The notes below the pieces were generated by a model. The model did no database searches, was not told where the DNA came from, and saw nothing but the letters and a program-made list of their open reading frames with translations. Source: Ulva prolifera (taxonomy: Eukaryota > Chlorophyta > Ulvophyceae > Ulvales > Ulvaceae). Taken from it: 64,000 nt of DNA. Below, piece by piece: positions 50 to 24,683 of this stretch. A program made the position numbers and the translations under genes. Position 1 is the stretch's first letter; the number at the start of each line of letters is the position of its first letter. The stretch covers positions 1,212,501 to 1,276,500 of the forward strand of contig CM041197.1 of NCBI GenBank assembly GCA_023078555.1, written 5' to 3'.

Positions 50-2571
50 TTAGTGGGTGTCCTCGTTGGCCTGCTGCACATACATCACGGGCACGTCAGA
101 ACTTTCACTGGCACGTTGGCACACTGCCCACAGTCAAGCAAGCAATGTTTCTATCGTTTCAGAGTTCAACTCTCAACGTTGCATGCATTCCGATGCAGAC
201 ATCAGCAACATGTAGGCACAGCTCTGTGCTCCTCGAGGAGCTCAGATTGGCCTTTCTGTGTGAAATCATCGTGTCACAGAACAGATCACCCCCTCTAGGA
301 CAAGCTATTAATATTACAAGCAGAGAGACAAATGGTGTAGCGTGTGGCAGGAGCGTACGCCCTCGGCGGTGGAGCCGTCGGTGGAGCCGGAGGCGTCGCC
401 GGAGGCGAAGTCGCCGCGCTCGCAGCCCTCGATGACCTCAAAGTCAGCGCCGGTGACAGCGGTGATGGAGGTGGCCACGTTGGTGTTGAAGCAGTTGCCC
501 TCGAGCAGAGCCTGAGCGATCGCCTGCACACACCCACGCAGTGACCACCAGTAGACTGACGAGAGAATTTAAAGGGCGTAAACAAACACAGTAAAAGAGT
601 CTCGTCCGGCTCAAAAGTTGCCATGAGACGCTGGCTGTAATATTTGTCAGCAGGTTAAGTGTTAGTAGACTTCAGCTCCATGACAGCGACCACCTGAGGT
701 CAGCTGCGTGGCAGCAAATACCACATACGGGAAAAGGGTGATGCTCTGATTGCATGCGAATCTGTCACCTGTGTCGCCGAAAGGATACATATACACATAT
801 GTGGGCAGAAGCTTTAGGCGCACCTTGGTGAAGACGACAGCGTAGGCGCGGGCGGAGCACCAGGCGAAGGCGACCGCGAAGGACGAAGCATCACCCTCGG
901 AGCAGGCAGTCACCTCAGCGCGGGCAAAGGCGTCAGCGATGAGCTCCACGAAGGAGGACGCGGTACCCACGGACAGAGCAGCGGCGTCGGCGAGGCACTC
1001 GCACTCCTCTGCAGAGGCCGCGACGGCGGTGGCGTGTGCCTCGGCGCTGGCCTCAGCCCAGGCCTCGGCGGTGGCGACGGCGGAGGCGCAACCGAACGCA
1101 ATGCCGGTGGACACGCACTGCGCCTGGGTCGCGGCCATGGCCTCGGCGATGGCGAAACCAGCATCCTCAGCAAAGTCCACAGCGGTGGCGATCACGCCAT
1201 CAAAGTCGGGGCGGCAGAACTCGGTGAACACCTCAGCCACGGCAGTAGCGTGGGCGTTGTCCATGTCAGAGAAGGTGGCTGCGCTGGCCTGGGATGTGCA
1301 GGTCACGGCGGAGATGGTCGAGCCGGAGAAGCCGCCGCTGAAGCCACCCTCATCTCCCTCATTACCCTCGTTACCCTCGTCGCCCTCATCCCCTTCGTCG
1401 CCCTCATCACCATCCTTGTCAGGGGTTCCACCCTCATCACCCTCGTCACCCTCGTCACCCTCGTTGCCTTCATCACCCTCGTCACCCTCATCGTTGCCGC
1501 CAAGAGTGGGGCGGGTGAAGCCGTCAAGGCCCTCATTGCCCTCATCACCCTCATCTCCCTCGTTGCCGTCAGTGCCGTCCTTGGCGAGGAGGGTGCGGGA
1601 GGAGGTGGTGCCGGTGGAGACGGCGGCGGAGGCCTGCTCTGGGGCCATAGCGGCGCCCGCGACCATCAGGCCAACAGCTGCTGCGGCGTAGATCCTGCAT
1701 GTACGCGTCTGTTCAGATTCCTGTTTGTGAAGTCCGCCAGTCCAGGCACAGCAACTTGAATGCTTCCAGAAACCGAACTGAGAAGCAATGACCCGCTGCT
1801 GCAACCCAATTGCTACCTAGTCTAGAATAGAATACCAACACACACTTACACAGAATGCCACACACTTACATTACATTTTCAAACACCTGCTTTACTGCTG
1901 TGAACAGAAAAAAAAAAAAAGTCATAAAGTTGCAACCCATGGGTGGATTGCCATTGCTGCTGTGCAGACATCAGTACTGATCATTGTGGCAGCCAGTTGC
2001 AGCCTAGCGTTGCAACATACATGATTGATTGAGTGCTGCTGTTCACAATTGCACTCTTGGATGCCATGTCTTGGATGCCATGAGTGTGAGCACAGTCTGG
2101 CCCACTGCCAAGTTGACTTCACTGCTTGCAGCAGTTGGTCAACCTTGTCAACCTTGAGGCTGTGCTGTCACTCTGCCTGTCAGCAACCTGCCTGACAGGG
2201 AACTTGCAACAGTCATCCCATGCCAACAGTACATTTAAATGCCTGCCACGGCAAGTATGAGAGTGCACCAGGTGATTGTTGCAGGCCTTATAATTACCTC
2301 AACAAGATTCTGGGCAAAACACACAGACCATTTGATCTAGATGAGTGGCAAGTTGCAGTTGAATGTAACTAGAAAGCAGCGTATAGCCACAGCTGCATGC
2401 ATGTACGTACCGCGCAGCCCTTACCTAGGCCTGTACAATCAGATCAATCCCGGAACCAGACGGAAGCCGAAAAGCAAGGCACTGATGACAACGCAAGCAC
2501 CTCACAGCACTGTATGTAGACAGCTATAGCTACTATAATCTCACAGACATCAAAGTGTGTGAAGCGCACAT
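50..2571 (-). CDS. Secreted acidic-repeat / alternating-Ala Cys protein, copy 1
   Basis: Exons on the minus strand: first exon ending at 2570, then 1694-824, 523-359 and 73-50 (stop TAA). The phases join exactly. The start codon is split: exon 1 ends in AT and exon 2 begins with G, giving a protein of about 353 residues. Residues 1-24 (MIYAAAAVGLMVAGAAMA then PEQASA) look like a signal peptide. Residues 42-117 hold about 18 Asp/Asn-Glu-Gly triplets, so glycine falls at every third position. Residues 130-291 are Ala-rich, with stretches where Ala occupies every second residue. The 55-residue third exon adds more of this domain. There are ten cysteines. The last exon encodes only QANEDTH. Introns are 875, 300 and 285 bp. 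No named family was recognised; a secreted wall, matrix or mucilage protein is inference. Confidence 0.85.
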
Positions 2572-2690
2572 GATGCTGAGTCCTGTGCTTGAAGCTGGAG
2601 CTGTCAAGTGGAGGTGCTACGTGTAGATGTTCTGGCGGTGCACGGGCTGGGACGTCTGAGTTGCTGTGACCTGTACCGCTGCGATGGGCG

Positions 2691-2825
2691 GTATATATAC
2701 GCTCCGTGACTGCAGCTATAGTCGCGCCCCTTAGCAACCGTCCACTTCCGTCGCTGCAGTCCCCGCTCGAATCGAGGTGCCCCCCACGCATGCGGCCTAG
2801 AAGCCGTGCTCTTCGCACCCATGAC
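2691..2825 (-). promoter_or_regulatory. Promoter of copy 1: TATA box and shared upstream element
   Basis: GTATATATAC at 2691-2700 lies about 120 bp upstream of the split start codon. At 2812-2825 is TTCGCACCCATGAC, which recurs in the same orientation relative to the gene at 80-117 bp from the TATA box in all four copies. Confidence 0.65.
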
Positions 2826-3805
2826 GAGCGCACGGCTGCACGTAGCACTATCCACGGACTCTCGCCACGTAGGCGTACACACCCTCGTAATTCTGCATCG
2901 TTCAAGCTTTCCAGGCCCGTGTGAATTACGACGGCGAGCCGGGTGGCGGCGTGCTGCAGCAGGTCGGCGCACATGGGCATGCGCGCGCCCATTCTGCGGC
3001 CGCATTAGGCTGTGCGGGGCAGCGGTGACGCAAGATGGTGATGCGCCGGGGCGGCAGGGAACGTATCTCGAAACATGGTGATCAAGGTGCGTGGAGTGAT
3101 CGGCCTCGTGCCGCGTTGGATGCTCGCGAGTCGACTCGATCGGCCCATTATGTCAGCAAGTGTGTCCGGCGCCGGTCTACCTCGTAATTGCAGCGGGCCG
3201 GGGTAATGCTGATGTGTATGAGAAGTCAGGGCAACAATGTTTATGAGTTCGTGTGAGCGGCGATTGCGAGATGGTGTAGCGCATGAGCCAGCTCCAGGTC
3301 CTGCGGCTGCCCGGGCCGGACTCAGGGCTGCAGCTGCGCGTGTTACACGGGAAAAGGCGGCGCGAGGTGGGCAGCATCGCGAAGAACGCGAGAGGATTGA
3401 GGGGTGCGTGTGTGTTGCAAAGACAAAGTCGGGGTGCGCGTGCACGTGTGTGTCTCCCTTTGAACGTTGACTAGGCAGTTGTCCCTCTTCGAACCGAGTT
3501 GTCTCATTCAGTATCTTCAACGGATCCGGAGGACTATCTCGACTTCGGATGAGATTCGGTCTTAGTGTTTGTTTCCTCCTGTTCACTCTTTTCAAAAGAG
3601 TCTTTTGTAAAGTGTCTCGAGTTCGTGGCGACGGGAACCTTCAGGTGCTGACACATGGCATTTGTGGCTTCAAACACCATTTCCCAGCCGAGTTCTGTCA
3701 TTGTTTTCCAGCCAGGTGTCCACATGATTCAAAGCTTGATTCTCTTCCGACGGTGGTCCCAGCAGCGTGCGCCGCTCTTCTTGCCTGGCTGATGCATGCG
3801 CAGGA

Positions 3806-3852
3806 ACAGCCGCGCGATGTTCGTAGGTTTACAGCCGCGCGATGTTCGTAGG
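3806..3852. repeat. 22-bp direct duplication
   Basis: ACAGCCGCGCGATGTTCGTA(GG) occurs at 3806-3827 and again at 3831-3852 with no mismatch. Confidence 0.9.
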
Positions 3853-5150
3853 AGGTTCTTTACTTGCGTTCCACTGCCATCACTTTCTCTCCGCAGTGAG
3901 TGTCGCGTCGGCATGCGATAGCGAATCTGCTAGCGATGTCACAGCAGCAGGCTGTCTGAGCATGTGCGCGCTAGAGCACACTGCTCTCGCGACGCGCTAG
4001 GAAGCGGTGCAGCTCACGTGCTAGAGCTGCGCATGTCCACTGCTGCCATGTGCCGGCGCAAAGCGACGGGAGACTCGGCTTCGGAATCACGCACCACAAG
4101 TGCACGTGCACTGTACACATATCGTGTTACAGAAGATTGAATTCAATCCGGCACCGGGCACTGTACACAATACTCACAAAAGATTGAACGGAAATTTCGA
4201 AATTAATGCACAAACACAGGAAAGTGGCACAGTGCACATGTGTTACAAGGACAAAGCCGGACATCTAGAGGCCGGATGTGCACACGCCCAAGCACTCTGC
4301 GTGGTGGTCCTGCGGTACGCGACTGCCGTTGCCGTGCCAGCGCTAAAGTGCCTGCACCTGCACGTGTGCTGTTGGCGGCCGCGGTAGCTTTGGTGGGTCG
4401 TTTCCTGTGCGCTGTTCTGGCGGTGCTATTTGCTGTTTCCCCAGCTTTGTGCGTGTAACGCAAGCGCTCTGCAATGCACAAAGTCTGCATACGCGGGCTT
4501 GAACAAGCCGGAGGTTACCGGGACATTTGATGCTGTGTTCTGTGCGTACGCGTGGTCGCTGGAGGTGTCCGTGCATGTGTACAAAAACTGTTTTCTTTTT
4601 CTGATACACTGTGCTCATCGTTGCGTATCTCGGAGTAAGGGTTACAAATCTCGGAGATAGTCCCGAGCAACGAATGATAAACTTGCATCTGTGCACCTTG
4701 ACGAGAGCTCTTCGCGATGCTGGAGCTTGTGCAGTGCTCGCTTAGGCCCTTTCACAGTTCCGAAACAGCACTGATGTTCCCGAATATGCTGTCCCGTAAC
4801 ACATCCGTGTACCTACAGCGTGTATGCTTCCGGAACGCAGCCATGTTGTCACGGAGCATCTGCACGCATCGCCATGCATGTATGCACATGGCGCCGCGCG
4901 GCTCGATTAGTGGGGTCACCGCATGCAGCTGCCATGCCGTACAGCGCGCGCGCTGCGTGCCAGCACCTGGCAGCCCGGCCTTGGTACTCTGTGGGAAGAT
5001 TCCGGCTGTGGTGACGAACGCCGACGCAAATTTAGGCGTTTGGCAGCGGCGTACGTGCACGTGCGGAGCGTGAGTAAAGCTGCAGGCGGCCTGGAGGCAC
5101 CAGGAACACGAGCACTGTCCAGCTGCAGCACTGGCAGAATTAGTGATGAG

Positions 5151-5188
5151 CGTGGCCATTCGTCGCGATTCGTGGCCATTCGTCGCGA
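5151..5188. repeat. 18-bp direct duplication
   Basis: CGTGGCCATTCGTCGCGA at 5151-5168 is repeated at 5171-5188, period 20. Confidence 0.9.
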
Positions 5189-5686
5189 AGATAAGGGGCG
5201 GTTTCTATGCATGTGCTTGGCGGGTTGCTGTTAGGATCCTGAAGTTGGCTGGCATGCCAATTGACCCCCAGCAAGCTTGTGCTTCAGCTTGGACAGAGGA
5301 TCCATGGCTGCAGCTAACCAATGGCATAGGTTGTTTCACTGGTTGGCCACTGTGGGAGGAGCACGGAGCACCTCTCAAGTTGACTCTGTACTTTCACCAC
5401 TTGTTGCAGGAACACAGCACAACCACACCACGCAGCTGCGTGTCTGAGTGCTACCTGCCCCTAGCACCCTCCCCTGCTTTGTACTTGCGACACTGCAGCT
5501 GTTCTGGTGTGTGGCCATGGGGCTGCAGCTGGCTGCATTATGGTTTGCACCTGCAGGCCTGGTGAAATTTCAAGGTCAGCTTTACAAAAACAGAGTCAGA
5601 GACCTGGGGGCAGGTAGCATCTCAGAGCCAGCACCGTGTGACAGTATCACCTCACACCACAATCATTCATGTCACACATGCCAACC

Positions 5687-5710
5687 CGCCTTGCTGCCTT
5701 TGTCCTTGTA
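5687..5710 (+). mobile_element. Very short retrotransposon tail with 13-bp target-site duplication
   Basis: The 24-bp insert, reading CTTTGTCCTTGTA at its 3' end, sits between perfect copies of ACACATGCCAACC at 5674-5686 and 5711-5723. The insert matches the 3' end of the dispersed TTGTAAC family, so it reads as an extremely 5'-truncated non-LTR insertion. Confidence 0.7.
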
Positions 5711-6756
5711 ACACATGCCAACCGCCTCTCACATCCCGACCCCTCACACCCCTCAGAACACAAACTGCGTCTACCTGCCTCTGGCCAGAGCTCTCGACAC
5801 GGCCAAACGAGCAGCGTATCGCCCCATGCCACCAGACAGCAGCTAGAAACGTTGCCACCCGGACATCCGGCGGCATAAAACTGGACTGTTACTCAGTGTG
5901 TGCCTCCTGCAGTTCCCCCTCCGCCAATTTGAAAGCACGTGTCGCGGTAGGCCCCTATAGGTAGCCCCTAAGCCACATGAGCATGCCCACTGTTGACCTG
6001 AGAGCACCAAAAAAGGATTAAACCTTCGGTTGCACCCGGTATAATCGGAGGCCCACCTCCCCCCATCCCCACAGGCCCACCACATTTTCAGGCTGTCTCA
6101 GGCGAGGGGGTTGGGCACTCGGTCTGCATGCACGTCCACTGGGAGCGCGGGCACCTCAGCTCTAGAACGCTCTGGAACACGCTTTAAAGAGCTATAGACT
6201 GAGTAGAACAACCTGAAACGGTCTTAAGCATACTGGGCGAAACAGGTGTGAATGCCCAGCGAAACGAGGGGTTCTTGACCAAAAGTGCTGTTTTGCCCAG
6301 CACGGCTCATATGGCATCAAACGGCGCCCAGCGCATGCCCATTGTGCTTGGTGGGCCGAGAACACCTCAAAAACACCATAATATGTGTCACTGGTGATCA
6401 TTGACAAGTCAGCTGGTTGTTGGTGTCCGTCTGACTTGACGGCACGGGTCGCGACGACTCGTCAGCGTGGCCACGGCGAGCGACCAGCTCGCCGGGGGCC
6501 TCGCCGGGGGTGGTTAATCAGTGCAGCAATGACAGACTTGTGCGTTGACCACTGGAATTCCCACCACTGCTATTGCTGATCAACGCTGCATGGCCAGTGT
6601 CAAGTTCGGCAAAAAAATGCGAGCAGTTTCTGTCCCTCTCGCCAGTGATGTGGAGTCGTTCTTTCTTTTCAACTGTTGAGGCTGCTCCATGCATGTTTGT
6701 GCTGATCTGCTACAGTTCTTTTATCGCTGCTGGAACCAAGTCACACACAAGCACAT

Positions 6757-6891
6757 CTCTGTCGTTGGCTGCGCCGGTGATGGGTTTCCTGGGCGTGGTG
6801 TGTGTCGCGTGCGTGGGTGGCTGGGTGTTTGCTTCGTCTGTTTGCTTCTTTCGCGGTGCTGCCCGCCTTGCTGCCTTTGTCCTTGTAACAT
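6757..6891 (+). mobile_element. 5'-truncated TTGTAAC-family retrotransposon tail
   Basis: A GT-rich segment ending CCTTTGTCCTTGTAAC is flanked by perfect 12-bp repeats ACACAAGCACAT at 6745-6756 and 6892-6903. The segment is closely similar to the ends of the copies at 13879-14218 and 51140-51339. Confidence 0.75.
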
Positions 6892-9682
6892 ACACAAGCA
6901 CATTATCCAGAACGTCTTATATTTGGCGCTGGTCTCATTGCCATGCGATGTACCTCTGGAAGTAGCTATGATTACATCTGCGTCAGCGTGCATGGCGTAG
7001 CAATATGAAAGCAGCGCCCGCTCACATCGTAAGCCAGCTGCGATGACTAGACGGGTCTATAGATCATTTGATGTTTTAGTGACACCCAGTCCAGGTCTCA
7101 TGGACCAAGTCGAGCTTTCGGCAGCCTGCCGTGACCGCTGTCGGAGAACGTGCATGCCAGCCTGTTGAGCATCATCATCGCAGTTACGCCCTCAAACCTG
7201 ATCATGTTTGAGGCTGATCGTGCGCTCCATCGGGCTGCAGCTTGAGAAGGGCGGATCTGCCTCTTCGAAGCCCTGGCAGGTACTCTTGCTTCCACGAAGT
7301 TTACATCTTATCGCACTACGTGGCAATAATTTGTCATTAATCTTAATAAGGACCGTGTGTCTCCGATGTTGCGTAGTCATGTTGAGCCTGATCAGCAGGC
7401 ATCGCGTGGTGTGAACGGATGACCTCACAGAAGCATGTCCTCGGTGTGATATACACTCTCACACCATCGCTCATGGTCATTACCATTTACGGCTGCTTTT
7501 GACGTGAGCGCTTGACACCATGTGCGATGTTTGGTTTCTTTGGCATTATGGCATTCAAGGCACTCACCAGATCCTGGCACAGTATGCACTGCTACCAATA
7601 CCCATTTAGAGTATATATGGAAGAAAGTTTCGTTGGTGCGAAGCCATTAGAATTGATGCAGTGGGCACACGCCCATCCTCCCTGACACATCTGTTTGGTG
7701 TTCTAGATCTGGACACAGATGATTACCGATGTATGTGATTTTGTACCACACGTTGGGCATTGACAATCTATTCTGGAGTCTCAAGCTGGCTGTGGGGCCT
7801 CGACGACTCCGGGGTTTCCTGTTCTGACTGCTCTGTGCCAGTGCACAGTGTCCTGTCTGATGCCTCGGCAAGCAAGGCACACAACTGTGTTATGGATTGC
7901 ATTAGTCAAAATCTTTGCGTTTCTAGGATCTGCATATCTTGATGTCGGGCCTGGGGCTGTTGCTGCTGACGGGGTAGATGGGGTAGATAGCGCTGTCCAT
8001 CAGTGACATTTTGCTACTATGTTGTTCCTGGCATGTGAATGGCTTGCTCACCACCCCACAGGAGTGACGTATACTCTGTTCTCATGTTAGGCAATCCTCT
8101 CTGATCTGATGTGAAGCAACGCACAAGCTCATCCAGGGACTGGTTCATCTTTGCTGGGGTGTGTATATGATCTGACCCCTGGTCTAGTGATCATACGGAT
8201 CAGTTTTTGGACATTTTGAGGATCGAGATTGACCCCGTATCTGTGTTTGGCAGATGGAACTTGTAGCCATCACTGTGGTAGGCTTCATGTGCATCCTGTG
8301 CACACTGTTCTGGCAGTTGGGATGTTGCAACAAGCGCTGAGAGATTTGGACACTGTTGTGATCATCGGTGCTGGACTTGTCTACTTACCAGGCTGCTGCA
8401 GGCTACGCACAGAGCATGGAACAATGCTCGAGCCTATGACAGTGGATGTAAACGTGGACTCTGGCGAGAGGCTGTTGTCTGTTGCAGGCAGAGAGCGAGG
8501 GTCAGAGCGTCATACGAACTACATGGTTCCTGCTTCCCAATGAGGCATCACTACGTAGAAAAAGAAATGCAGAAAACTGATGCACATGCAGCGGCGATGC
8601 TGACAGACTTGCCAGAACGGCCGACCTGCATGATTCAAATCACCATGTAGTGGTGCCGAAATGCTCCGTTCTTGTATTGATGTCCCCACATGAGTTGTGC
8701 ATCTCGGCAACATCGATCAGAGGTGGCCACTGGCATTGGTGGCCAGCTGTGGCGGGCCCTAGTCTTGGGCTGAACTCAGAAGCAGTGTTGAGTCGCTTTG
8801 CAGCATGTCCAGTGTTGTCACTTTGAAAATAGATGTGAATATTCGGAACTGTTCTATGTGATCGGGTTTGATGATGTAACGGTGCTCAGAACAATGCTAC
8901 TGCCGACAAAGACCTGCCCTGCATAGCCCACAAGTGCATACATCATGTGGGAGCTTGCCAGCCACCACGCAGTCAGTCAGTCACAGTGGTACAAGGACAC
9001 ATGTACAGCCATCGAGGCAGATAGCACCGAAGGACACAAACACGGGTCAGAGTGCGGTCAGGGCACAGCTGCTTTCAATTGCAAGCACCTTGCCAGATCC
9101 TGTTTGGTGACATCAGGCAACGCAGCGATCTAGCCTCAGGCCGCTGAAGCAGATCTGCAGCAGCGTGTTACTACCTGTGCTGCTCCTGTCCGCAGTCACA
9201 ACATGCTCAGCCAGAGGTGCAAGAGAGGGCTGGTTACGTTACAGCACGCAGCTGGAGAACATATGTGGATCACTCGGTATAACAACGGGCCAGTGGGCCT
9301 ACACCACCTGCTGTTGCCATGCAGTGCCCCTATGCCACAGCCACCCGCGCTGCCGTCCAGGTGCATCCTCTAGTTGCAGTACCGAAACTCCCCAGTAGCA
9401 CATTGAATAGAATACTAGCCTATCGATAAATTAGCCCCTAGAAACTCTCTGATATTGGATGAATCCGACGCAGCGGTGAGCCGTCTGCACTTGCAGCTGT
9501 CCCTTCTCTGCTCATTATGGATTAGCTAATCCCTAGGTTGGGGCCCTTCGTTATTGGTGTAGAATGCTCGGGCCTGCGTGGCCCGGCATCATGCATGGAG
9601 CCTCCAGGTCCCGCACAGCACTCCCCGGGTCTCTCCCGGGGGTTGCGAGCTCAGTCTTCGTAGGTGGCCCTTGCGCAGCAGC

Positions 9683-10011
9683 TTAATGGCCGAGGCTGTC
9701 GTTCGCCTGCTGCACACGCACCACAGCCACGTCAGCATGCGTACACATCACTCCCACAAACTGTTGATGTCTAGATACATGATGAAACATGAATTCAATT
9801 ACACGCGGAGGCAATTGCAGCATATGCACGGGTCGTAGCCACAGCTGTTGAGGTGAATACTAGAACTTGTGCCCTCTAGACAGACTGAACATGAGGCGTC
9901 TGAACATGAGAAAATTCTCTTTCGGAGAGACAACCCATTGCAATGCTGTACATCACGGTCAGCTCTATGTATGCAAGTGTCTATCGCAGTGCCACAGGCC
10001 CTAGACAAGAG

Positions 10012-10043
<32 letters not shown>

Positions 10044-11985
10044 TGGTGCAGGGGAGCGTACGCCCTCGGCGGTGGAGCCGTCGGTGGAGCCGGAGGCGTC
10101 GCCGGCGGCGAAATCGCCGCGCTCGCAGCCCTCAATGACCTCAAAGTCGGCGCCGGTGACAGCGGTGATGGCGGTGGCCACGTTGGTGGTGAAGCAGTCA
10201 CCCTCAAGCAGAGCCTGGGCGATCGCCTGCACACACCCACGCAGTCAGCAGCTGGCCACCACCGGCACTCCTGATACTGCAGGCATCCCTCTGGCTAGCA
10301 CAGCTGCAGCACGGAAGGTACTGGTGCAATTGGTCGGGCGCAGGGACACCTGCACTGGCTGGCGCTGCAGCTGCGATCACGGCAACACTGGCAACGGCGG
10401 AGTGCCAGACACGTTTGGAGCTGCAACCAAAGCAGCTGCCATTATGACCTGGTGTGTTGGGAGGACTCACCTTGGTGAAGACGGTGGCGTAGGCGCGGGC
10501 AGTGCACCAGGAGAAGGCGACTGCGTAGGACTCGGCGTCACCCTCGACGCAGGCAGTCACCTCAGCGCGGGCAAAGGCATCGGCGATGAGCTCCACGAAG
10601 GAGGACGCGGTACCCACGGAGAGGGTGGCGGCCTTGGCGAGGCAGTCGCACTCCTCTGTAGAGGCCGCGACGGCGGTCGAGTGCGCCTCGGCGGTGGCCT
10701 CAGCCCAGGCCTCGGCGGTGGCGACAGCGGAGGAGCAACCGAATGCAATGCCGGTGGACACGCACTGCGCCTGGGTCGCGGCCATGGCATCGGCGATGGC
10801 GAAACCAGCATCCTCAGCAAAGTCCACAGCGGTGGCGATCACGCCATCAAAGTCGGGGCGGCAGAACTCAGTGAACACCTGAGCCACAGCGGTAGCGTGC
10901 GCGTTCTCCATGGCAGAGAAGGTGGCTGCGGTGGCCTGGGAGGTGCAGGTCACGGCGGAGATGGTAGAGCCGGAGAAGCCGCTGCTGAAGCCACCCTCAT
11001 TTCCTTCGTTACCCTCGTTGCCCTCGTTACCCTCATCCCCCTCATCGCCCTCATCACCGTCCTTGTCAACGACACCACCCTCGTCGCCCTCATTGCCCTC
11101 GTCACCCTCATTGCCCTCGTCGCCTTCGTCGCCCTCGTCGTTGCCGGCACTCAGGGATGGGCGGATGAAGCGATCAAGGCCCTCATTGCCCTCATCACCC
11201 TCATCGCCCTCGTTGCCGTCAATGCCGTCCTTGGCGAGGAGGGTGCGGGAGGTGGTGGTGCCGGTGGAGACGGCGGCGGAGGCCTGCTCTGGCGCCATGG
11301 CGGCGCCCGCGACCATCAGGCCGACTGCAGCTGCGGCGTAGATCCTGCATGCACAACACACATGTAAAGTCAAGTAAAGTCAACATATACTGCAAAGCTC
11401 AGGCTTGCACAGCTGATAGTGTTGCATGCTGTAGCAATTTTTAAAAATTAAGTGCTTACTAGTGACTTCTGACACTGCAGATGCCATGCACTTGCTCTGC
11501 TGTGGCAACAAATGCCTGCATGCAGATCTATGCATGATCATGTATGCTGGTGCACCACAAGATGTGAGAAGGGGGGACTATGCAAGTGAGCACTTGCACA
11601 TTTGCTTTGCTTTTACATGCACATATGCATGCATGCATGGCATATGTGTCCTGCCAGAGCTGCTCATCCTCACGACAAGGTACAGCTGTTTCACTGTGGA
11701 GCTGAAACTGTAGATCGTTCTTGCCGAAACTATCACGGGTGTAAACAAGAAACACAGCAGCAGCTACTGCAGAATCTGTTCGGAAATAGCTCTAGCTTTC
11801 ACACACGTAGCCACACACTGCAGCGGCGCCATTGCAAGCACGCGCTCGAGCTCCCTGATACGACAGGACAGGTGTAGCACAATGTGTACTACGTAGCAGA
11901 AACACCATGCCGCAATATAAAGAGTGCGTTCGCTTGCTGTCGGCGTCAGCTGCCTGCAGGTAGCGGTGGGGTTGAGGACGCACAT
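9683..11985 (-). CDS. Secreted acidic-repeat / alternating-Ala Cys protein, copy 2
   Basis: Exon 1 ends at 11984; coding exons are 11344-10471, 10226-10062 and 9709-9683. They give about 355 residues with the same plan as copy 1: signal peptide, Gly-Asp-Glu triplets, Ala/Cys domain with ten cysteines, then a tiny last exon. Here that exon reads QANDSLGH instead of QANEDTH. The start codon is again split as CAAGAT^G with donor GTGCGT. In the triplet region it carries VVDKDG and groups with copy 4, whereas copies 1 and 3 carry PDKDG. Introns are 639, 244 and 352 bp. The third contains a run of 29 G on the plus strand. Function unknown. Confidence 0.85.
10013..10041. repeat. Homopolymer run of 29 G
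   Basis: An uninterrupted G run on the plus strand inside intron 3 of copy 2, 20 bp from the exon 3 donor. The length may be affected by assembly or sequencing slippage. Confidence 0.9.
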
Positions 11986-12108: not shown

Positions 12109-12228
12109 GTATATATACGCCCCGCGGGGTCGCGACCCGCAGCCTGTGACCCGCGCTCGATGGAGCAAAAGATGCGAAAGGAATCGTGGCTGCAGTGGCA
12201 ACACAGGCACGCGTTTCGCAACGATGAC
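12109..12228 (-). promoter_or_regulatory. Promoter of copy 2
   Basis: GTATATATAC at 12109-12118, about 125 bp upstream of the start codon. The shared element TTCGCAACGATGAC is at 12215-12228. Further upstream GTGTGCATCAATCTTGCG at 12336-12353 is identical to a motif upstream of copy 3. Confidence 0.65.
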
Positions 12229-13878: not shown

Positions 13879-14218
13879 TGGGTCTGGGGGTTGGGTTTGG
13901 GGCCGGGGCGGCCCCCGGCAATCGGGCGGCCAGGATGGGCGGCCTTGGGCAGCAGTGTGTCAGGCGCGGCCCTGTCGTGCGGCGACAGGCGTTGAGGTGT
14001 TGGATGCTGTGTGGTTGTGTGTGGGCCGTTGGCGTGTGCGGGTGTGTGGGTATGTGCTTGGCAGTCTGCGGATCTGTGTCGTTTGCTGCGCGCGTGATGG
14101 GTTTTCTGTGCGTGGTGGGTGGTTGGTGTTGCGTGCGTGGGTGTATGGGTGTGTGCTTGGTCCGAAGTCTGCTTGCTTCTTTCGCGGTGCTGCCCGCCTT
14201 GCCACCTTTATCCTCGTA
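13879..14218 (+). mobile_element. TTGTAAC-family retrotransposon tail, 340 bp
   Basis: A G/T-rich segment ends in a sequence matching the 6757-6891 copy (TTCGCGGTGCTGCCCGCCTT, then CTTTATCCTCGTAAC). It is inserted in a CA microsatellite, and ACACACAA is present on both sides, consistent with a short target-site duplication. No intact reading frame is seen. Confidence 0.65.
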
Positions 14219-15603
14219 ACACACACAAAATCATGACACTGCAGTGCAGCTGATGCATTTGATGCCACTGCCATAACTGCCACAAATGCGGGAGGCAAAA
14301 GTGTTTGCTCAAGCTGTGAGCTCAGGTGCAAAGAACTGGGAGTCAAGACATGTACACACGCTACAGACAAGCTCAGCATTGTCCTTGTGTCATAAATTCC
14401 AGCCGATCTGGGCCCAATCAGTCAGAGGCCACGTTATTGGACATGTGCATATTTCATGAATCTCAGAGGTATTCATGTATGACAGAGATATTTACTGGCA
14501 TGCCAGGACATGTCCCTGAGCTGACCCTGGATTGCCACAGGCATCTAAGCTTACCTAGGCAATGCTGGCTGCTGCCAGGACTGTTACACAGGTGTCCCTT
14601 GGCCATGGGTGCACCACGCCATTGCCTGCCTACCTGGATCCATTCCGGCCGGAAGACCATTAAGAGTACATGGGTGCACGCCACGCCAAGACCCCCCCTC
14701 ATGGACAGAAGACCATCATGGCCAGACCAGACGACCATCATGTGTGATTAAGCTACAATGATTAAGATTACATGGGTGCACCAGCTGCAGCCGGCTCGCC
14801 AAGCTTACAGACAACAAGGTTGAAAGCATGACCACATAGGACTCTGCAAAGGCTGCCCAGGAGCTGCATGAGTGGCAGCACAACTGTCCAATGTATCAAC
14901 TCTCAGCTACTCATTCATGAAGCTTGCCAACATGGTCAGTGCAGAAAAAGAGAGAGATCTGCAAGCGATCTTCTTTGACATCAGCAATTATTAGCAAGCA
15001 CTGCTGCTTTGTTGACTACTCTGGTCAATGAATACCCTGGCATTCATGCCAGCCAGAGAGCAATGTAGCAATCCAGTGGTGAAGCAGCAGGGCCATATCA
15101 CTGGATTTTGTCAAGCTCTTGTGGTTGCAATGATGATCATCAGCCTGCAGCTGCAGGATGCCGAGTACATGACTTGTTGGTATCTCTGATGATGATATGA
15201 ACTGTTGTATACTATCTGAGCATTCAAGCAACACTCCAGCTGCAGTGCACTGGCTATTTGCTTGTTGCTCAGATCCCATGGCCATGAGCAGATGAAGCAG
15301 AGCAGCAATTCAAGAGACCATGCATGAGTGACTGGCGAGCCTGTTGTCCAGGATCTAGGATCCTGGCACTAGCACAGTACTGGCATCTCACAGCACTCCA
15401 TGGACCGAGTACTAGCAAAGACATTCAGTCAGTCCGCATCATGCACCGTATATTTGCTTGTGTTCAGAAGCATTCATGTATATGATGCTACGTGGATGCT
15501 GCGGTGCTACCAGCCTGCCCTGCCTTCCCCTCAAGGCCACAATAACAATGTCCTCTCCACGATACGGCTCAGTACATTCAGATTTACTTTGCAATTGTAA
15601 CAC

Positions 15604-15663
15604 AGAAGCATGTTCAAAAGCATGTTCGGAAGCATGTTCAGAAGCATGTTCAGAAGCATGTGC
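15604..15663. repeat. 12-bp tandem array, five units
   Basis: Five consecutive units of AGAAGCATGTTC with one or two substitutions in some units. There are no spacers, so this is a minisatellite, not a CRISPR array. Confidence 0.9.
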
Positions 15664-15986
15664 AGGGTGGACCAGCTGACAAGGCCCTACGTAGGAACCC
15701 ATGAGAAGCAGAGAAAGTTACAGCTGGGAAAGACGCAGTGTGGCGCTCTGCGGCTGGCAGTAGATGCAAAATGACTGCCTAAGCCACCGATGCGAAGAAA
15801 GAAAATACTGCATGGCCACCTACACTACTTCCTGCCGGCAGTGAGCTTCACTGCAGCACCCCCACACTTCCACCTTGAATGTGGTGTCTGGGAACTACAG
15901 AAAAATTCTTATTATCCGGACACAGCAGTGACTTGGCTTCAACCTTCCTATGATATCGACCAGTCAGAAGGGCTGCAGCGTGTGCT

Positions 15987-16030
15987 ACACTGCTACAGAA
16001 CAGGTGTGACACTGCTACAGAACAGGTGTG
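15987..16030. repeat. 22-bp perfect tandem duplication
   Basis: ACACTGCTACAGAACAGGTG(TG) occurs at 15987-16008 and immediately again at 16009-16030. Confidence 0.9.
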
Positions 16031-16199
16031 GATGACTAGTACTGCTGCCATCCTTTATGAGCTCGACCTTGTGGACCCTTGGGTGTCAGCGCTCGTGCTC
16101 GCTCCAGCAGGGGCCCTGAGTGCCCCATGACAGCGTCGTTACAACGCCAGCCCTGATGAGATTCTGCCCTCCGGTCGCAGAGCTGAAGGCGCAGAGGCT

Positions 16200-18538
16200 C
16201 TAGTGGGTGTCCTCGTTCGCCTGCTGCACATATGCACACCCTGGCGTCAACAATCTGCGTTCCATCGCATGCGTGTGCGCATGCGTGTGCGCGTTCCTTG
16301 AGCAGCAGATGGCTACTATGGCGTGCTTGCTTGCTGCGGGCCGCAGCTAGCCACCCAAGGTCATTGCCAACACGGTGTGAGCGATTACGATCGAGGTGGC
16401 GATGCCTGCCTGTGGTGCATGCATAGTATGCACATGAGGCGGCCGGTGAGCCCAGGCCAATGCTCAAGCAGGCCTGGGCGTATCGCGGACAAGGTGCCAA
16501 GCTTGGGTCAGTCTGCATCACTAGTACAGTGGCATGTTTGACAGTATCGGGAGCGTACGCCCTCGGCGGTGGAGCCGTCGGTGGAGCCGGAAGCGTCACC
16601 AGCAGCGAAGTCACCGCGCTCGCAGCCCTCGATGACCTCGAAGTCGGCGCCGGTGACGGCGGTGATGGCGGTGGCCACGGTGGTGGTGAAGCAGTCGCCC
16701 TCGAGCAGAGCCTGGGCGATCGCCTGCACACACCCACGCAGTCAGCAGCGTTTTGTATCCTGCGGCGTAAGCTAGTAGCTGAAGCACAAGTGCTTCAGCG
16801 TCATCCTGTAGGTAGGTACGAATATTACACGTATATATTATTACACGTAGCTAGCTTGTACATCTTCAGATCAGTATTCACAGGCAGCACAGTCCGCTCT
16901 TTGGAGCCTGTGTGGATTGAGCAGATCATGTAGTCCCATGAAACAGCAGACACGTTCATGATTGAAGACTGACTGTGATGATGAATGTACTCATTGAACA
17001 AACAGTCTTGCTGGAGAGGATGGCAGGGCAGTAGTGTGGCAATCCAGTGATATGGCCGCTATACCACTGGATCCTTGCACGTCGCGACGTGCAAGGATCC
17101 AGTGGTATAGCGGCCATATCACTGGATTGCCACAAGTAGGGCTCACCTTGGTGAAGACGGTGGCGTAGGCGCGGGCAGAGCACCAGGCAAAGGCGACCGC
17201 GAAGGACTCGGCGTCACCCTCGACGCAGGCAGTCACCTCAGCGCGGGCGAAAGCGTCGGCGATGAGCTCCACGAAGGAGGACGCGGTACCCACGGACAGC
17301 GCGGCGGCGTCGGCAAGGCACTCGCAGTCCTCTGCAGAGGCCGCGACGGCGGTCGAGTGCGCCTCGGCGGTGGCCTCAGCCCAGGCCTCGGCGGTGGCGA
17401 CGGCGGAGGCGCAACCGAACGCAATGCCGGTGGACACGCACGCAGCCTGGGTCTGGGCCATGGCCTCGGCGATGGCGAAACCAGCATCCTCAGCAAAGTC
17501 TACAGCGGTGGCGATCACGCCATCGAAGTCGGGGCGGCAGAACTCAGTGAACACCTCAGCCACAGCGGTGGCGTGGGCGTTCTCCATGGCAGAGAAGGTG
17601 GCTGCGGTGGCCTGGGATGTGCAGGTCACGGACGACAGGGTGGAGCCGGAGAAGCCGCCGCTGAAGCCACCCTCGTTTCCTTCGTTACCCTCGTTACCCT
17701 CATCACCCTCATCGCCCTCGTCGCCCTCGTCGCCATCCTTGTCAGGGATTCCTCCCTCGTCACCCTCATCGCCCTCGTCACCCTCGTTGCCCTCATCACC
17801 CTCGTCGCCTTCGTCGTTGCCGCCGAGAGTGGGGCGGGTGAAGCCGTCAAGGCCCTCATTGCCCTCATCACCCTCATCGCCCTCGTTGCCGTCAGTGCCG
17901 TCCTTGGCGAGGAGGGTGCGGGAGGTGGTGGTGCCAGTGGAGACGGCGGCGGAGGCCTGCTCTGGGGCCATAGCGGCGCCCGCGACCATCAGGCCAACTG
18001 CAGCTGCGGCGTAGATCCTGCATGTATGCAGCACACCAGTTGTTGCAGAGCCCATGAACGTGTGTCAAGCCAGGCCTCTCAGCTTAGGACTGTGCAAACT
18101 TGGCTTGCACTTTCAGGACTACTAGTCCTATGCAGTACACTGGCCTGTGGATGGCAGTCCAGCTCAGGAGGGCCTGCACTAGTCACAGCTGCCAGTTGGC
18201 AGTCCAGCTCAGGAGGGCATGCACTAGTCACAGCTGCCAGTGAATGGCATGATCTGTGCCTGCAGTCAGCATCTACCTCCAGGACTTGCAGCCTATCTGC
18301 TTCATGTATTTGAGCTGGAGTGGGCAGCTCTAGTTGCAGAATTAGCTAAGTAGCATGCGTCCTAGTCAAAGCAGAGCTCTGTCCAGCTGCGTACTAATGC
18401 AGGCTTGTACTACTGCAGCACTACAAAGCTACAGCACTCTGCTCCAGATGAGACAACAATCAACAGGTCACATAGAGATCGTACGGGGTTGAGTGTTTTA
18501 CAAGATCATGACAGATTTTGCAGAACGAAGGCGTACAT
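16200..18538 (-). CDS. Secreted acidic-repeat / alternating-Ala Cys protein, copy 3
   Basis: Exon 1 ends at 18537; coding exons are 18017-17147, 16723-16559 and 16223-16200 (stop TAG). They give about 353 residues, with QANEDTH encoded by the last exon. The start codon is split as ACCAT^G, here with donor GTACGC. The triplet repeat is of the PDKDG type shared with copy 1. Ten cysteines are conserved. Intron 1 (519 bp) contains a 45-bp tandem duplication. Intron 2 (423 bp) contains a perfect 100-bp palindrome close to the splice donor. Coding exons are nearly identical to copy 1 by eye, while introns are not alignable. Function unknown. Confidence 0.85.
17035..17134. repeat. Perfect 100-bp palindrome flanked by AGTAG
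   Basis: Two 50-bp arms meet with no spacer at 17084/17085 (GTCGCGAC centre) and match at every position. AGTAG is present directly on both sides, at 17030-17034 and 17135-17139, as a transposon target duplication would be. A shorter imperfect relative with the same AATCCAGTG...CACTGGATT ends lies near 15064-15113. Best read as a fold-back or miniature inverted-repeat element inside intron 2 of copy 3. Confidence 0.85.
18152..18241. repeat. 45-bp tandem duplication in intron 1 of copy 3
   Basis: Two adjacent 45-bp units (18152-18196 and 18197-18241), beginning TGGCAGTCCAGCTCAGGAGG, differ at one position. Confidence 0.9.
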
Positions 18539-18658
18539 GGTGAGTGTAGTCTTGAGATGCGGAGAGGAAGTGGAACGAGTGTACGCTGCTGTGGATTGCT
18601 GGATTGGAGTTCTAGTGGAGCTCGTAGATGCGGTGTAGTATTGTCCAGGCAGGTCGAG

Positions 18659-18799
18659 GTATATATACGTTTCCATCCGGATCTCATGGCTAGACCGGGC
18701 GCCGAGATGCATGTTCGAAGCGCACCGCCTGAGCGAGATCGATCGCGTGGCGCCGAGTGGCGACGGTGACCTGGAACTCGCCCAGTTCGCACCCATGAC
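18659..18799 (-). promoter_or_regulatory. Promoter of copy 3
   Basis: GTATATATAC at 18659-18668, about 121 bp upstream of the start codon. TTCGCACCCATGAC at 18786-18799 is identical to the element of copy 1. GTGTGCATCAATCTTGCG at 18925-18942 matches copy 2. Confidence 0.65.
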
Positions 18800-19370
18800 T
18801 GGCTCCGAACCACAAAACTACTGAAGGTAGTGCCGCGATGCCTAGAATCACGCGTCGTGAAGAACGTATACGCATCGTCACTCGTAGCCGTACAGTCACG
18901 GCGCAGATGCTGCTACGTAATTCGGTGTGCATCAATCTTGCGGCCCCGTAGCTATAGGCCTGCCAGTGGGCCTCTTACAGCGGGACATGGCGTGGCCACC
19001 ATCGAGCCGCCCCCCATGGAGCCGCCCCCCGGCGCCAGGCAGCTCTCGTGAGTGCATGAGGTGACGACTCGGAACTCTCACCGCCGGCGCTGCAGGTGCG
19101 AAAGTTCCCCTACACGGATCCTTTCCGACTCTGCACAAGAGCGCGATGCGCGGTATCGTTGATCGCGATTCACTGGATGGCGCCATGCAGCAGCACCACC
19201 AAAAGCATATTCCATGCTACAGTTGGCCATGGCGAGAGTGCACTGGAGCTCCTTAGGTCTTGCGCACCATCCTGCTGGCGGCGATTCTGTGCAGGCAGCT
19301 GCTGATGTTCTATGGCATCTATTTAATTAAGCCAGATTTGTAACGATAGCCAGATCTGCTCTGTACCTGT

Positions 19371-19450
19371 GTTACAAGGATAAAGCGAGCAAGGCAGCCT
19401 GAGATAACACCGGAACAACAAGGAGAACACCACACCCACCCACGCAATCA
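19371..19450 (-). mobile_element. Older TTGTAAC-family tail, reverse orientation
   Basis: It begins GTTACAAGGATAAAGCGAGC, the reverse complement of the family 3' end. The flanks GCTCTGTACCTGT (19358-19370) and GCTCTGGTCCTGT (19451-19463) agree at 11 of 13 positions and read as a decayed target-site duplication. Confidence 0.5.
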
Positions 19451-19787
19451 GCTCTGGTCCTGTTTGACTCCTGCTATGTGATGCAAGCAAGTATACATGC
19501 CTCTCCAATGTTGTGCTTGTACATGTCAAATGTGCAGCATAATCGTGACAGTACTGACAGTACACGTATTACAAAAGAGAGGGAGAAGACAAACACCACA
19601 AAAGAATCTTATCCGGAACAACAGCAACATACACACAAGCACACTACAACCACGCCCACACCTCAGCCCAGCAGGATCGCGTCCTCCAGGCCCGCATCAT
19701 GCCGCAGCCCCTGCTCACGCGAGATTACCAGCCCCGACGTCGACTGCCGTTACATCTCCGCATTGCCCCGCTACAACGACACAGACA

Positions 19788-20278
19788 ACATCCCAGGTAC
19801 ACGATTTTTTCTGGTTCGGGTTCAGGATTGCAGCGGGCGACGGCTGCGGTTGGGGAAATGGGTTGGGGTCTGGGGGCTGCCAGTGGACGGGGCCCCCCGG
19901 CGGCTTGCGCATTGGGCCGGCTCCGGCTGGGCTGCCAGCTTGGGCAGCCTCGGCCGCGCGGGCGGCGGGGTCGTATTGCGTGCGGGCACGGGGGTGCGTG
20001 TGTTGGGGGGTTGAGCTGGGACGGGTGCACACATGTGTGGGTGTGGTGTGGGGGTGTGTGGGTGCGTGTTCAGTGGATTCCTGTCGGGCTGATCAATGTC
20101 GAGGCGGGGTGCTGTACATATTTAAACGTGTGCGGGTGCTTGCTGTGACTTGGCCCTGAGTTCAGGCGGATTCGAGGTGGCTGTCGCTCTCCTGACGCAC
20201 GTGCTTTGGGTTGTTCGTGGGCTTCCTCGTTGACCTGGCGGTGCTACCGGCCCCTCTGCATGCGGCTTTGTCCTTATA
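19788..20278 (+). mobile_element. TTGTAAC-family retrotransposon tail, 491 bp
   Basis: A G/T-rich segment similar in texture to 13879-14218 ends in GGCTTTGTCCTTATAAC. ACACAGACA occurs at both borders (19779-19787 and 20279-20287). It is the longest copy of the tail in the window. No intact reverse-transcriptase frame is present. Confidence 0.6.
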
Positions 20279-22073
20279 ACACAGACAGCAACCACAGCGC
20301 CCACTGGACGATCGCGCCTTTGGAAATGCGCCCACTAGCAGCAGCCACATCCCCCGACTGGCCGACGAATCGCACGGCAGCCTTGCCCATGAAGCCACAC
20401 GACTCGACGGCAAACGGAACAACTTGAAACCGGAACGCTGCATGATCAGGCACGTACGTCCCGCCTGCAGCGGTCCCGCTTCCTGTTCTCCGCCCGCTCC
20501 GCTGTCGCACCCGTCACGCGTGCCGCGGCGGCCACGTACGAGGCCGCCGGCGCACGCGTGACCACGGCTTCCACGCCAGCCATCTCCAGGCCTCGTGCGC
20601 AGGAATGCGCAATCGATTGCACATGCATATGCCACTGGCACCGCGCTTACGTATGTACGTCAGCATTGCTGACTCAGCATGAAACAAGCTTCTATCCATA
20701 CAACAGAGTAAAACGGTAAGCTATGTCAATGGAATTTCCTTCTTGAAGCCTGTTCACTCTTCTGTCAGTCTCAGCGCTAGCGGCGAGCTCTGAAGCTGCG
20801 CGCGTGAAGCACCACAGCAAATTAGCGACCTATCGCTCGATGGACGTTTCGCTCGAGGCAGAGCTGAAGTTGTCAGCTCAGACGTACCCACTGGCGACTT
20901 GATCCGCCGTCCGCGAGCAAGTTGTGGCAGCAGCCATGCGCCGCGGGGCAGCACGGACACGCGTGCACGCAAGTTATACACGTGGCAAACGTCTACCCTG
21001 TGTACCTGTAAGGTAGATCACGAAAAATTGAACAGCCGCGATTGTTCACCTCAACGAACACCACACAAGCTGTAAACAATTTCCTGCTGTCGATGTGCTG
21101 CCCGCTTGCGCTCACGCACCCGTGAATGCGGCTGGCATCACATGCATGCATGTGCACGCATCAGCTCCTGCTGCTGCGTCAGCCGCGCGGAGCTACGGAA
21201 CCGTCTCTCGTTTACGCTTTTGTAATGATACACCGAACCGTCTCGCGCCGTCTGCGTGCGTGCCGCAATTGTGCACGTGCACGTGTGTGCGATGCCTGGG
21301 CATCGACATATATATATATATATGGCTTATGGCTTATATATATGGCTTATGGCATATGGCTTCCGCGTGTACCGGCGCGCTGTTTCGACTGCAACTGCTC
21401 GGCGGTGCAGACCTTTGCAGAGGCTATGGCCGGCGCCTGATCAAGCTGCTGACGCTGCAGCTTGATCAGCGCGCTGGCCCGGCTGCTGCGTGGGCGCTGC
21501 TGCAGTGTTGTCGTGTGTGTGGATATTTGGTTGTTGCTTCGGAAGAGATGAGTTTGTCGTGTTTGTTTAATCCCCTTCATTCTTCTGTAAACCAGCTCTT
21601 CTGTACATGTAAACCAGCTGACCGTGACGTGTTTGGCAGCAACATATGCTCAAGCGGCCCCCATGCACGCAGCACGCGCAGCAACAACCTCGAGTGACAC
21701 GCGTCCGTGGTCGATCGGGGCGAGGCGCATGAGGCCATCGCAAACGCTGCGCGATTTTTGACCATTTCTTCGCTGTGCCTGCGCGGCCGTCACTATGAGC
21801 GGACAAGGTTGCAACAGATACACACCGCAACCGCTGCGCCGAGCATTTTCAAGGCAGCCACGCGAACTCTTTGTATTATGGTTGTATTATGGCATCGTAT
21901 GCGCGCAGCTGTGCAGATCACGCAGTGCGTGCGACTGTCACCGTGCCGGTACACGTCATCGCCGCCGACGGCGCCACCGCGCAGGCTTGAGCGCTCCAAA
22001 TGCATGCAGTCATGCGTGACGGTAAGCTTGCATGACGATCCGTGGCGGGTGGCTTCGCGCCGCACCTGCGCCA

Positions 22074-22290
22074 CAAGATTGGTACACACTGAATTACGCA
22101 GGCGCATCCGAAAGGTCTCGCGGAGCATTATACGACATGGCGCAAGGCGTGCGCATGCTGCCGCAGTTCAGCGTTGCTTACATCAGGTCATTGGTGCGAA
22201 CTGCGTGCCGACGTTGCCACCACAGCCACGATCGCGAATCATGAGCTCTGCACTCGCCACCGCCCCGGACGCTCGAAAGCGTATATATGC
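22074..22290 (+). promoter_or_regulatory. Promoter of copy 4
   Basis: The TATA-like GTATATATGC at 22281-22290 is about 140 bp upstream of the start codon. GTCATTGGTGCGAA at 22187-22200 is the reverse complement of the element shared by copies 1-3. CAAGATTGGTACACAC at 22074-22089 resembles the reverse complement of the distal motif of copies 2 and 3. Confidence 0.6.
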
Positions 22291-22424
22291 GCCCCACTAC
22301 CGCTCCTACTCAACACTGCCTTCTTCCGTCCTCCAACTTTCCTCCGAATTCCTTCAGTCAGTCAGAGTCCACTTGATCGCGCCGTGGCCAAACTTCCGCA
22401 CCAGGACTCGATCTCAATCTCAAG

Positions 22425-24683
22425 ATGTGCGTCCTCGTGAAACCGATTGCCCTCGAGCGAGTTGGTCGTGTGTGCTGCGACTGTGGACTGCACTCAGTTG
22501 TGTGATGCAAGGACAATGGTCGGAGATCGTCTGTGTGTGGCGTGAGCTGGGTCCACGGCAATCCCTTCGCTGCTGCTGCTTTTCCGGCAGCACAGCAGCG
22601 GTAGCATATGCATGCCCTTGTTCGCGTGGTCACGCCACCGCATCTCTCGAGAGAGAGTGTGGCACCTGGCGATATGCATGTACAGATTTGTGTAGCACCT
22701 GAGGGGTAGATAGCTCACTTGTGAGGGAGACCTCAATATTAATTGTCCTTGAGGAGCCAGGATTGTGAGGCCTGCAGTACCAGGCATCAACATATGAAAC
22801 TTTCCCGGAGATGAGCTTTGAGAATGAGCATCCTGTTTTTGTTTTTGGAGAGTTGCTTGCTGCTTCACAACCAGCCATGATCTGTCCAGCATGAGAGGCT
22901 GCAGCCCTGGTCCCTGGTACCATGAGCCCGGTACCACGTGTTGGCTGTTGTATTGGTTGTATTGGTTGTATCTCTGAGAACCAGAGCATCAGTTCTACCA
23001 CATTTTGTTGATATGAGCACGCATGCAGGATCTACGCCGCAGCTGCAGTTGGCCTGATGGTCGCGGGCGCCGCCATGGCCCCAGAGCAGGCCTCCGCCGC
23101 CGTCTCCACCGGCACCACCACCTCCCGCACCCTCCTCGCCAAGGATAACGACGGTAACGAGGGCAACGAGGGCGATGAGGGTGACGAGGGCAATGAGGGC
23201 CTTGACCGCTTCACCCGCCCATCCATGAACAACGGGGACGAGGGCGACGAAGGCGACGAGGGCAATGAGGGTGACGAGGGCAATGAGGGCGACGAGGGTG
23301 GTGTCGTTGACAAGGACGGCGATGAGGGCGATGAGGGTGACGAGGGCAACGAGGGCAACGAGGGTAACGAAGGAAATGAGGGTGGCTTCAGCGGCGGCTT
23401 CTCCGGCTCCACCATCTCCGCCGTGACCTGCACATCCCAGGCCAGCGCAGCCACCTTCTCCACCATGAAGAACGCGCACGCTACCGCTGTGGCTGAGGTG
23501 TTCACTGAGTTCTGCCGCCCCGACTTCGATGGCGTGATCGCCACCGCTGTGGACTTTGCTGAGGATGCTGGTTTCGCCATCGCCGAGGCCATGGCCCAGA
23601 CCCAGGCTGCGTGCGTGTCCACCGGCATCGCGTTCGGTTGCTCCTCCGCCGTCGCCACCGCCGAGGCCTGGGCTGAGGCCACCGCCGAGGCGCACTCGAC
23701 CGCCGTCGCGGCCTCTGCAGAGGACTGCGAGTGCCTCGCCGACGCCGCCGCGCTGTCCGTCGGTACCGCGTCCTCCTTCGTGGAGCTCATCGCCGACGCC
23801 TTCGCCCGCGCTGAGGTCACTGCCTGCGTCGAGGGTGACGCCGAGTCCTTCGCGGTCGCCTTCGCCTGGTGCTCCGCCCGCGCCTACGCTGTCGTCTTCA
23901 CCAAGGTGCGCCCTACTAGTAGCCCGCCGATGCATGCACTGTTGGTTGAGGGTGCTACCCTGTGGCTATGTCTTTACAATTCTCTTCGAGAATCCCTGCA
24001 TGTTGATGAGCCTTCTGAGGGCCGTCTCAGACTCTCTGCTAATCGTACCTTTGTCCAAAGCAGCCACTGCAGTCATGATGGTCACTGCGTGGGTGTGTGC
24101 AGGCGATCGCCCAGGCTCTGCTCGAGGGCGACTGCTTCAACACCAACGTGGCCACCGCCATCACTGCCGTCACCGGCGCTGACTTCGAGGTCATTGAGGG
24201 CTGCGAGCGCGGTGACTTCGCTGTTGGTGACGCCGCTGGCTCCACCGACGGCTCCACCGCCGAGGGCGTACGCTCCCCAACACCGATGCTGAGATATACT
24301 GTAACTTCCAGTTTAAAATTGAAGGCAGGACAGACACTGTTTTGATGGTGGCGTCGGTGCAGCCTTGCGCTCTTGTCGCTGCACGTTGTGCAGACCGCGG
24401 CAGTTGACTGCAGCTGCAGCATGCATGCGTCAGCCTGTTTGCTGTCTCGAGCGAGCGAAAATCTTGAAATGCCAGTACACTCCAAGCATGTAGCAGCACT
24501 CGGTGCACGTTCATGTCCTGGACCTCGCATCTGATGACCCTGTCCCAGAGATCGCTTTCCCTGGGCTTGAATCATGCAGAGTGCTGCTTTGTCTCGTCCA
24601 TTCTCAGTCAATGTGCCAGAGACACGGCGTGGCGTGACGTCTCCCCGATGCGTGTGCAGCAGGCGAACGAGGACACCCACTAA
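22425..24683 (+). CDS. Secreted acidic-repeat / alternating-Ala Cys protein, copy 4
   Basis: This is the only plus-strand member. Exon 1 ends at 22426 (CAAGAT), and coding exons are 23029-23905, 24103-24267 and 24660-24683. They give about 355 residues with signal peptide, Gly-Asp-Glu triplets (VVDKDG type, as in copy 2), an Ala/Cys domain with ten cysteines, and the QANEDTH last exon. Donors are GTGCGT, GTGCGC and GTACGC. Introns are 602, 197 and 392 bp. It lies head to head with copy 3, 3.9 kb apart, so the cluster has an inverted arrangement. Exons match copies 2 and 3 almost base for base, while introns do not align. Function unknown. Confidence 0.85.

Follow-up and report, generated by a model that had tools for sequence, protein, structure and literature searches.

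Genes with a probable intron-interrupted start codon

A 64,000-nucleotide (nt) stretch of the green seaweed Ulva prolifera (GenBank assembly GCA_023078555.1, contig CM041197.1, positions 1,212,501 to 1,276,500 of the forward strand; the window) carries four paralogous genes, here called A, B, C, and D, whose start codon is probably interrupted by an intron after its second base. Each gene has a TATA box followed by a short leader that ends in AT directly before a GT[GA]CG[CT] donor, and a main exon that follows TGCAG and begins G ATC TAC (Table 1). The sequence GTATATAT is present in all four, and the main exon opens with GATCTACGCCGCAGC after CATGCAG. A first-pass annotation, made from the letters of this DNA, had placed the split codons and main exon starts at the positions given in Table 1 and had joined them as ATG ATC TAC; both the sequence and our gene models bear this out in every window gene. 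The spliced start opens four-exon models of 353, 355, 353, and 355 amino acids (A, B, C, and D, respectively), in which the frame is open from MIYAAAAVGLMVAGAAMAPEQASA through to a terminal peptide beginning QAN. The distance from TATA box to ATG is 128, 132, 129, and 143 nt in the same order; the intron 1 donor reads GTGCGC in A, GTGCGT in B and D, and GTACGC in C, with CATGCAG as the acceptor in all four. Among the 27 TATA[AT]A boxes of the window (both strands, overlaps collapsed), the first ATG is part of ATGTRCG at only four, and these are the boxes of genes A to D.

Table 1. Positions in the window of the promoter, split start codon, exons, and first intron of the four genes.
Feature	Copy	Position	Strand	Detail	Basis
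TATA box	A	2692..2699	-	TATATATA	sequence
AT of split start codon, end of exon 1	A	2570..2571	-	A at 2571, T at 2570	sequence, gene model
Intron 1	A	1695..2569	-	875 nt, GTGCGC...ATGCAG	gene model
Main exon	A	824..1694	-	starts at 1694; start-codon G, signal peptide, acidic Gly-X-Y repeat, Cys/Ala-rich domain	
Exon 3	A	359..523	-		gene model
Terminal coding exon	A	50..73	-	QANEDTH, stop	gene model
TATA box	B	12110..12117	-	TATATATA	sequence
AT of split start codon	B	11984..11985	-	A at 11985, T at 11984	sequence, gene model
Intron 1	B	11345..11983	-	639 nt	gene model
Main exon	B	10471..11344	-	starts at 11344	gene model
Exon 3	B	10062..10226	-		gene model
Terminal coding exon	B	9683..9709	-	QANDSLGH, stop	gene model
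TATA box	C	18660..18667	-	TATATATA	sequence
AT of split start codon	C	18537..18538	-	A at 18538, T at 18537	sequence, gene model
Intron 1	C	18018..18536	-	519 nt	gene model
Main exon	C	17147..18017	-	starts at 18017	gene model
Exon 3	C	16559..16723	-		gene model
Terminal coding exon	C	16200..16223	-		gene model
TATA box	D	22282..22288	+	TATATAT	sequence
AT of split start codon	D	22425..22426	+	A at 22425, T at 22426	sequence, gene model
Intron 1	D	22427..23028	+	602 nt	gene model
Main exon	D	23029..23905	+	starts at 23029	gene model
Exon 3	D	24103..24267	+		gene model
Terminal coding exon	D	24660..24683	+		gene model

Replication across the gene family

A protein search of the genome (88.9 Mb in 44 contigs, with the window belonging to contig C2) returned 127 matches, and the copies read are those in part of the loci. 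The counted set comprises 52 distinct copies with a placeable main-exon start. Left out of it were family matches lacking a placeable start after AG (L057, L060, and L068), loci with no signal-peptide match (L049, L053, L062, L066, and L071), the same copies under other identifiers (L003 to L008), close neighbors of L061 (L063 to L065), and L078, which does not belong to the family. Though outside the 52, L062 carries CAT/GTACGC and GATCTAC (here and below, a slash marks the splice junction).

In the four window genes, as the first-pass annotation proposed, and also in most family copies read, the start codon straddles the boundary of exons 1 and 2. A strict rule requires that the first ATG at least 28 nt past a TATA[AT]A box be part of ATGT[AG]CG and lie 70 to 230 nt from the box; it is passed by 35 of the 52 copies, by 0 in each of 20 dinucleotide shuffles, and by 2 on the reverse strand. 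Neither this rule nor the window control involves copy-by-copy fitting. With looser, TATA-like boxes, 44 of the 52 copies have a candidate; setting aside the doubtful L056 and L061 leaves 42, and adding L018 and L022 gives 44 copies with a TATA-like box, a leader, and AT/GTRCG...AG/G. The dinucleotide before the first GTRCG located 60 to 230 nt past a TATA[AT]A box is AT at 40 of 43 boxes (overlaps collapsed), or in 39 of the 42 copies having such a site. A tight promoter pattern run genome-wide found 11 matches, ten of them just upstream of family copies on contig C3 (one site being counted twice) and the other at another place on C3.

Evidence that the split ATG may serve as the start

The surroundings of the split ATG resemble those of a working start. 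An A occupies position -3 in 38 of the 44 tabulated copies, and 42 leaders contain six ATGs against 27.2 expected, a count as low as which occurred in none of 500 shuffles (how far these figures are selected is considered under Interpretation). ATG density is 1.6 per kb in leaders vs. 27.5 per kb in intron 1. From codon 2 onward (codons 2 to 10), differences between copies fall mostly at third positions in the manner of coding sequence, and therefore translation would begin at or before codon 2.

An alternative is that intron 1 is a plain leader intron and that translation begins within the main exon, at a codon 2 ATG where there is one or at codon 11 or 12, leaving the split ATG incidental. 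Codon 2 is indeed ATG (Met) in 19 of the 52 copies, and codons 11 and 12 are often ATG; however, codon 2 is Ile in 31 copies and another residue in two, the coding-like variation already covers codons 2 to 10, and a start at codon 11 would, by inspection, remove much of the hydrophobic stretch. The AT ending is also kept in the 15 of 42 resolved copies that have ATG at codon 2. We consider an internal start improbable. A quick tree of 50 copies, many of whose forks are weak, requires at least 13 changes in the state of codon 2, whereas the AT ending was kept. That the conservation reflects selection, as the first-pass annotation suggested, is supported: the AT, the A at -3, and the ATG-poor leader appear to be held as a working start while the rest is scrambled.

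The AT ending might instead be part of the donor signal, as would be allowed by the 39 of 42 copies in which it precedes the first GTRCG past the TATA box. The other donors of the same genes disfavor such a motif, as they follow other dinucleotides and never AT: AG (11), AC (3), and CG (2) before 16 intron 2 donors, and GC (36), GT (3), GG (2), and AC (1) before 42 intron 3 donors. This explanation is the least probable of those we weighed. A further candidate concerns the C at donor position +4, which might persist because it prevents AUG-UGA or AUG-UAA in unspliced RNA. All 44 tabulated intron 1 donors have this C, although the table required it; 12 of 16 intron 2 GTRNG donors have it; and the promoter pattern in its GTGAG version finds 0 matches in the genome vs. 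11 for GTGCG. The proposal fails against intron 3, which has no start codon and yet has C in 40 of 42 readable donors, so that the C looks like a donor habit of the family, and start-stop avoidance is very unlikely to account for it.

Spliced and unspliced reading frames

The first base of intron 1 is also G, so that unspliced RNA would hold an AUG (AT plus the donor G) at the same position. Because the intron's own G follows AT, splicing would not create the AUG but would determine the sequence that comes after it, and the description of the start codon as "assembled by splicing" in the first-pass annotation holds for the junction it spans and overstates what splicing adds. If intron 1 is retained, the frame meets a stop after 5 to 80 codons in each of the 50 copies for which there is a candidate donor, and it never stays open into the main exon. 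This supports the view that the signal-peptide frame could be reached from the split AUG only with intron 1 removed. Since the unspliced frame is always stopped, intron removal would be necessary for a product from that AUG, as for any early coding intron; and because nearly any such gene shares this dependence, it is no evidence of control. The earlier proposal that translation of the export signal needs intron 1 removal is therefore sound as to the frame, while the dependence does not by itself show control. Its companion claim, that no conserved in-frame start lies upstream without splicing, holds for A, B, and D, which have no stop-free ATG there, but C has an ATG 39 nt upstream. Across the family, 18 of the 52 copies have at least one stop-free in-frame ATG upstream of the main exon, at scattered places.

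Retention of intron 1 could nevertheless act as a switch, the same AUG being present on both RNAs, the unspliced form being a dead end that yields a short peptide or is decayed, and the rate of splicing setting secretion of the family's products. The AUG in both forms of the RNA and the absence of read-through in 50 of 50 copies fit such a gate. A shared switch would, however, be expected to keep some intron element, and the interior of intron 1 is not conserved: pairwise identity among A to D is 43 to 47% vs. 41 to 43% for shuffled sequence, within 1 to 4 points in all six pairs, and 17 of 22 close pairs (fourfold-site identity 0.8 to 0.9) have no blastn match in intron 1, although a short or scattered element could be missed. 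No conserved regulatory element was found in intron 1 by this comparison, which did not search for short elements.

The layout differs in two related genes. On contig C8 (L072 and L073, from 2443280), five copies are repeated in tandem every 5090 bp, with a sixth close by. In the two genes read, one array copy and the sixth, exon 1 is ATG GCT AT/GTACGC and exon 2 is GATCTACGCAACAGG; stretches of the acidic repeat are present. An intact ATG thus stands two codons earlier and the split Met is internal, which suggests that the split layout is dispensable in the wider family and speaks against an obligate switch. We regard a regulated gate as unlikely. The same holds for the proposal of one AUG with two fates, by which retention of intron 1 would divert ribosomes in some fifty genes for secreted matrix proteins and form a family-wide splicing gate on matrix production.

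Interpretation

The best explanation, to which we give a probability of roughly 0.87, is that an ordinary leader intron became fixed within the start codon, between its second and third bases (phase 2 of codon 1), before the family expanded. A spliceosomal intron inside the initiation codon would predate the divergence of the copies read, and its position would be kept by the protein's need for an exon 1 that ends in AT, an exon 2 that begins with G, and a leader with no earlier AUG. On the spliced mRNA the ribosome would read AUG AUC UAC and then the signal peptide; on unspliced RNA it would enter the intron and meet a stop within 80 codons. Intron 1 would act mainly as an ordinary, constitutively spliced leader intron. 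We infer both splicing at these sites and use of the split AUG.

Several points weigh against this explanation. It is based on genome sequence, and the copies share ancestry and so are not independent. Seventeen copies fail the strict rule, eight lacking a TATA[AT]A box in the sequence covered and nine with another ATG first or no such site. No TATA-paired candidate was found in 6 of the 52 copies (L043, L046, L047, L051, L054, and L067), the candidates in L056 and L061 are doubtful, and those of L018 and L022 were placed in extra upstream sequence only, where the introns would be long (about 1.6 and 2.35 kb). In 7 of the 44 tabulated copies, another ATG precedes the split one, 28 nt or more past the chosen TATA box. 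Because donors for the 44-copy table were required to fit ATGTRCG, with a preference for few ATGs upstream, a degree of selection is built into the 44 of 44, -3, and leader-ATG figures. The first base of the main exon is G after AG in all 52 copies, a figure that is partly conditional, as copies that could not be placed were not counted and acceptors ordinarily favor a G after AG.

Relation to known systems

Interrupted start codons are a known rarity, of which the Ulva family is a further, well replicated case (44 of 52 copies read). The parts of Nielsen and Wernersson (2006, PMC1626468) that bear on introns interrupting the start codon (codon 1, phase 1 or 2) call them "relatively rare, especially in plants". 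The intron described here likewise lies within codon 1; what differs is that it is kept by most of 52 copies, precedes a signal-peptide-like start, and occurs in a green seaweed. The same source, in those parts, describes start codon introns of phase 0, right after the ATG, as peaking in proteins that lack a signal peptide and as showing an overrepresentation of ribosomal proteins. Both kinds are early introns that part the start from the rest of the gene at positions one base apart, whereas in the Ulva family a signal-peptide-like start goes with an intron in phase 2 of codon 1. RETS, as outlined in the portion of PMC12363958 drawn on here, uses a start codon cut AU/G, with a group I intron ribozyme split over two RNAs and a third RNA as the trigger. 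The cut between U and G and its restoration by splicing are alike; unlike the artificial RETS, Ulva would use an ordinary GT-AG intron in one gene. A literature search on split start codons found no report of a comparable gene family, which is weak evidence of absence given that most subscription journals lie outside its coverage.

The family displays what selection appears to hold (the AT, the G, the A at -3, and an AUG-poor leader) while other leader and intron sequence changes. It is also a warning for annotation, as predictors that seek an intact ATG in one exon may misplace such starts or miss the signal peptide.

Divergence of the copies

The main exons of A to D are 90 to 93% identical, with 81 to 90% identity at fourfold sites. 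Their leaders are 49 to 61% identical pairwise vs. 41 to 48% for shuffled sequence, so that the conserved exon 1 reported at 120 to 140 bp from the TATA box reduces to the TATA box and the exon end (128 to 143 nt); the remaining sequence is not conserved. Recent duplication of the window copies, also suggested in the first-pass annotation, is contradicted by the unalignable introns and leaders. Window genes A to D and the pairs L023/L024 and L069/L070 have nearly alike exons, fourfold sites included, and mostly unalignable intron 1 and leader sequences, with similarity stopping at the splice sites; in L069/L070 the fourfold sites are 99% identical and intron 1 is matched over 16% only. This pattern is compatible with gene conversion restricted to exons, as well as with slow synonymous change combined with fast intron turnover. 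The pair L021/L025 (93% at fourfold sites) keeps the whole of intron 1, which speaks against a simple rule of exon-limited homogenization.

Protein product and other features

At the N-termini of A to D an Ala-x-Ala site follows a hydrophobic stretch, and by inspection these N-termini are signal-peptide-like. The repeat that follows is Gly-X-Y-like, acidic, and low in proline. A window protein matches Pfam Collagen (PF01391) at 22.3 bits, below the curated cut-off of 27.2, and a profile search against the PDB gave two collagen-like chains with E values of 0.25 and 0.48. The product is probably a secreted, acidic, collagen-like protein. The relevant part of PMC9266709 lists 28 collagen genes in U. 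mutabilis and four in U. compressa; the Gly-X-Y repeat and a weak Pfam Collagen match are common ground. The sub-threshold score, acidic repeat, and low proline content set the window protein apart.

Intron 2 (524-823 in A, with matching stretches in B, C, and D) is shared by the clade to which the window genes belong and by some further copies, and many C3 copies read through it, a distribution that reads as gain or loss within the family. In copy C, intron 2 contains a perfect 50-nt inverted repeat with no spacer (17035-17134), and intron 1 contains two tandem 45-nt units that are 98% alike (18152-18241). The GC content of the window is 57.7%, vs. 57.3% and 57.2% listed for U. compressa and U. 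mutabilis, respectively, in PMC9266709. A plastocyanin exon of the genome matches PDB chain 7pcy, a protein of Enteromorpha (now Ulva) prolifera, without a difference over the 45 aligned residues, in keeping with U. prolifera as the source. Among ten long frames elsewhere in the window, the sole Pfam domain is a WRKY DNA-binding domain (E value of 4e-12) in the frame at 60326-61207.

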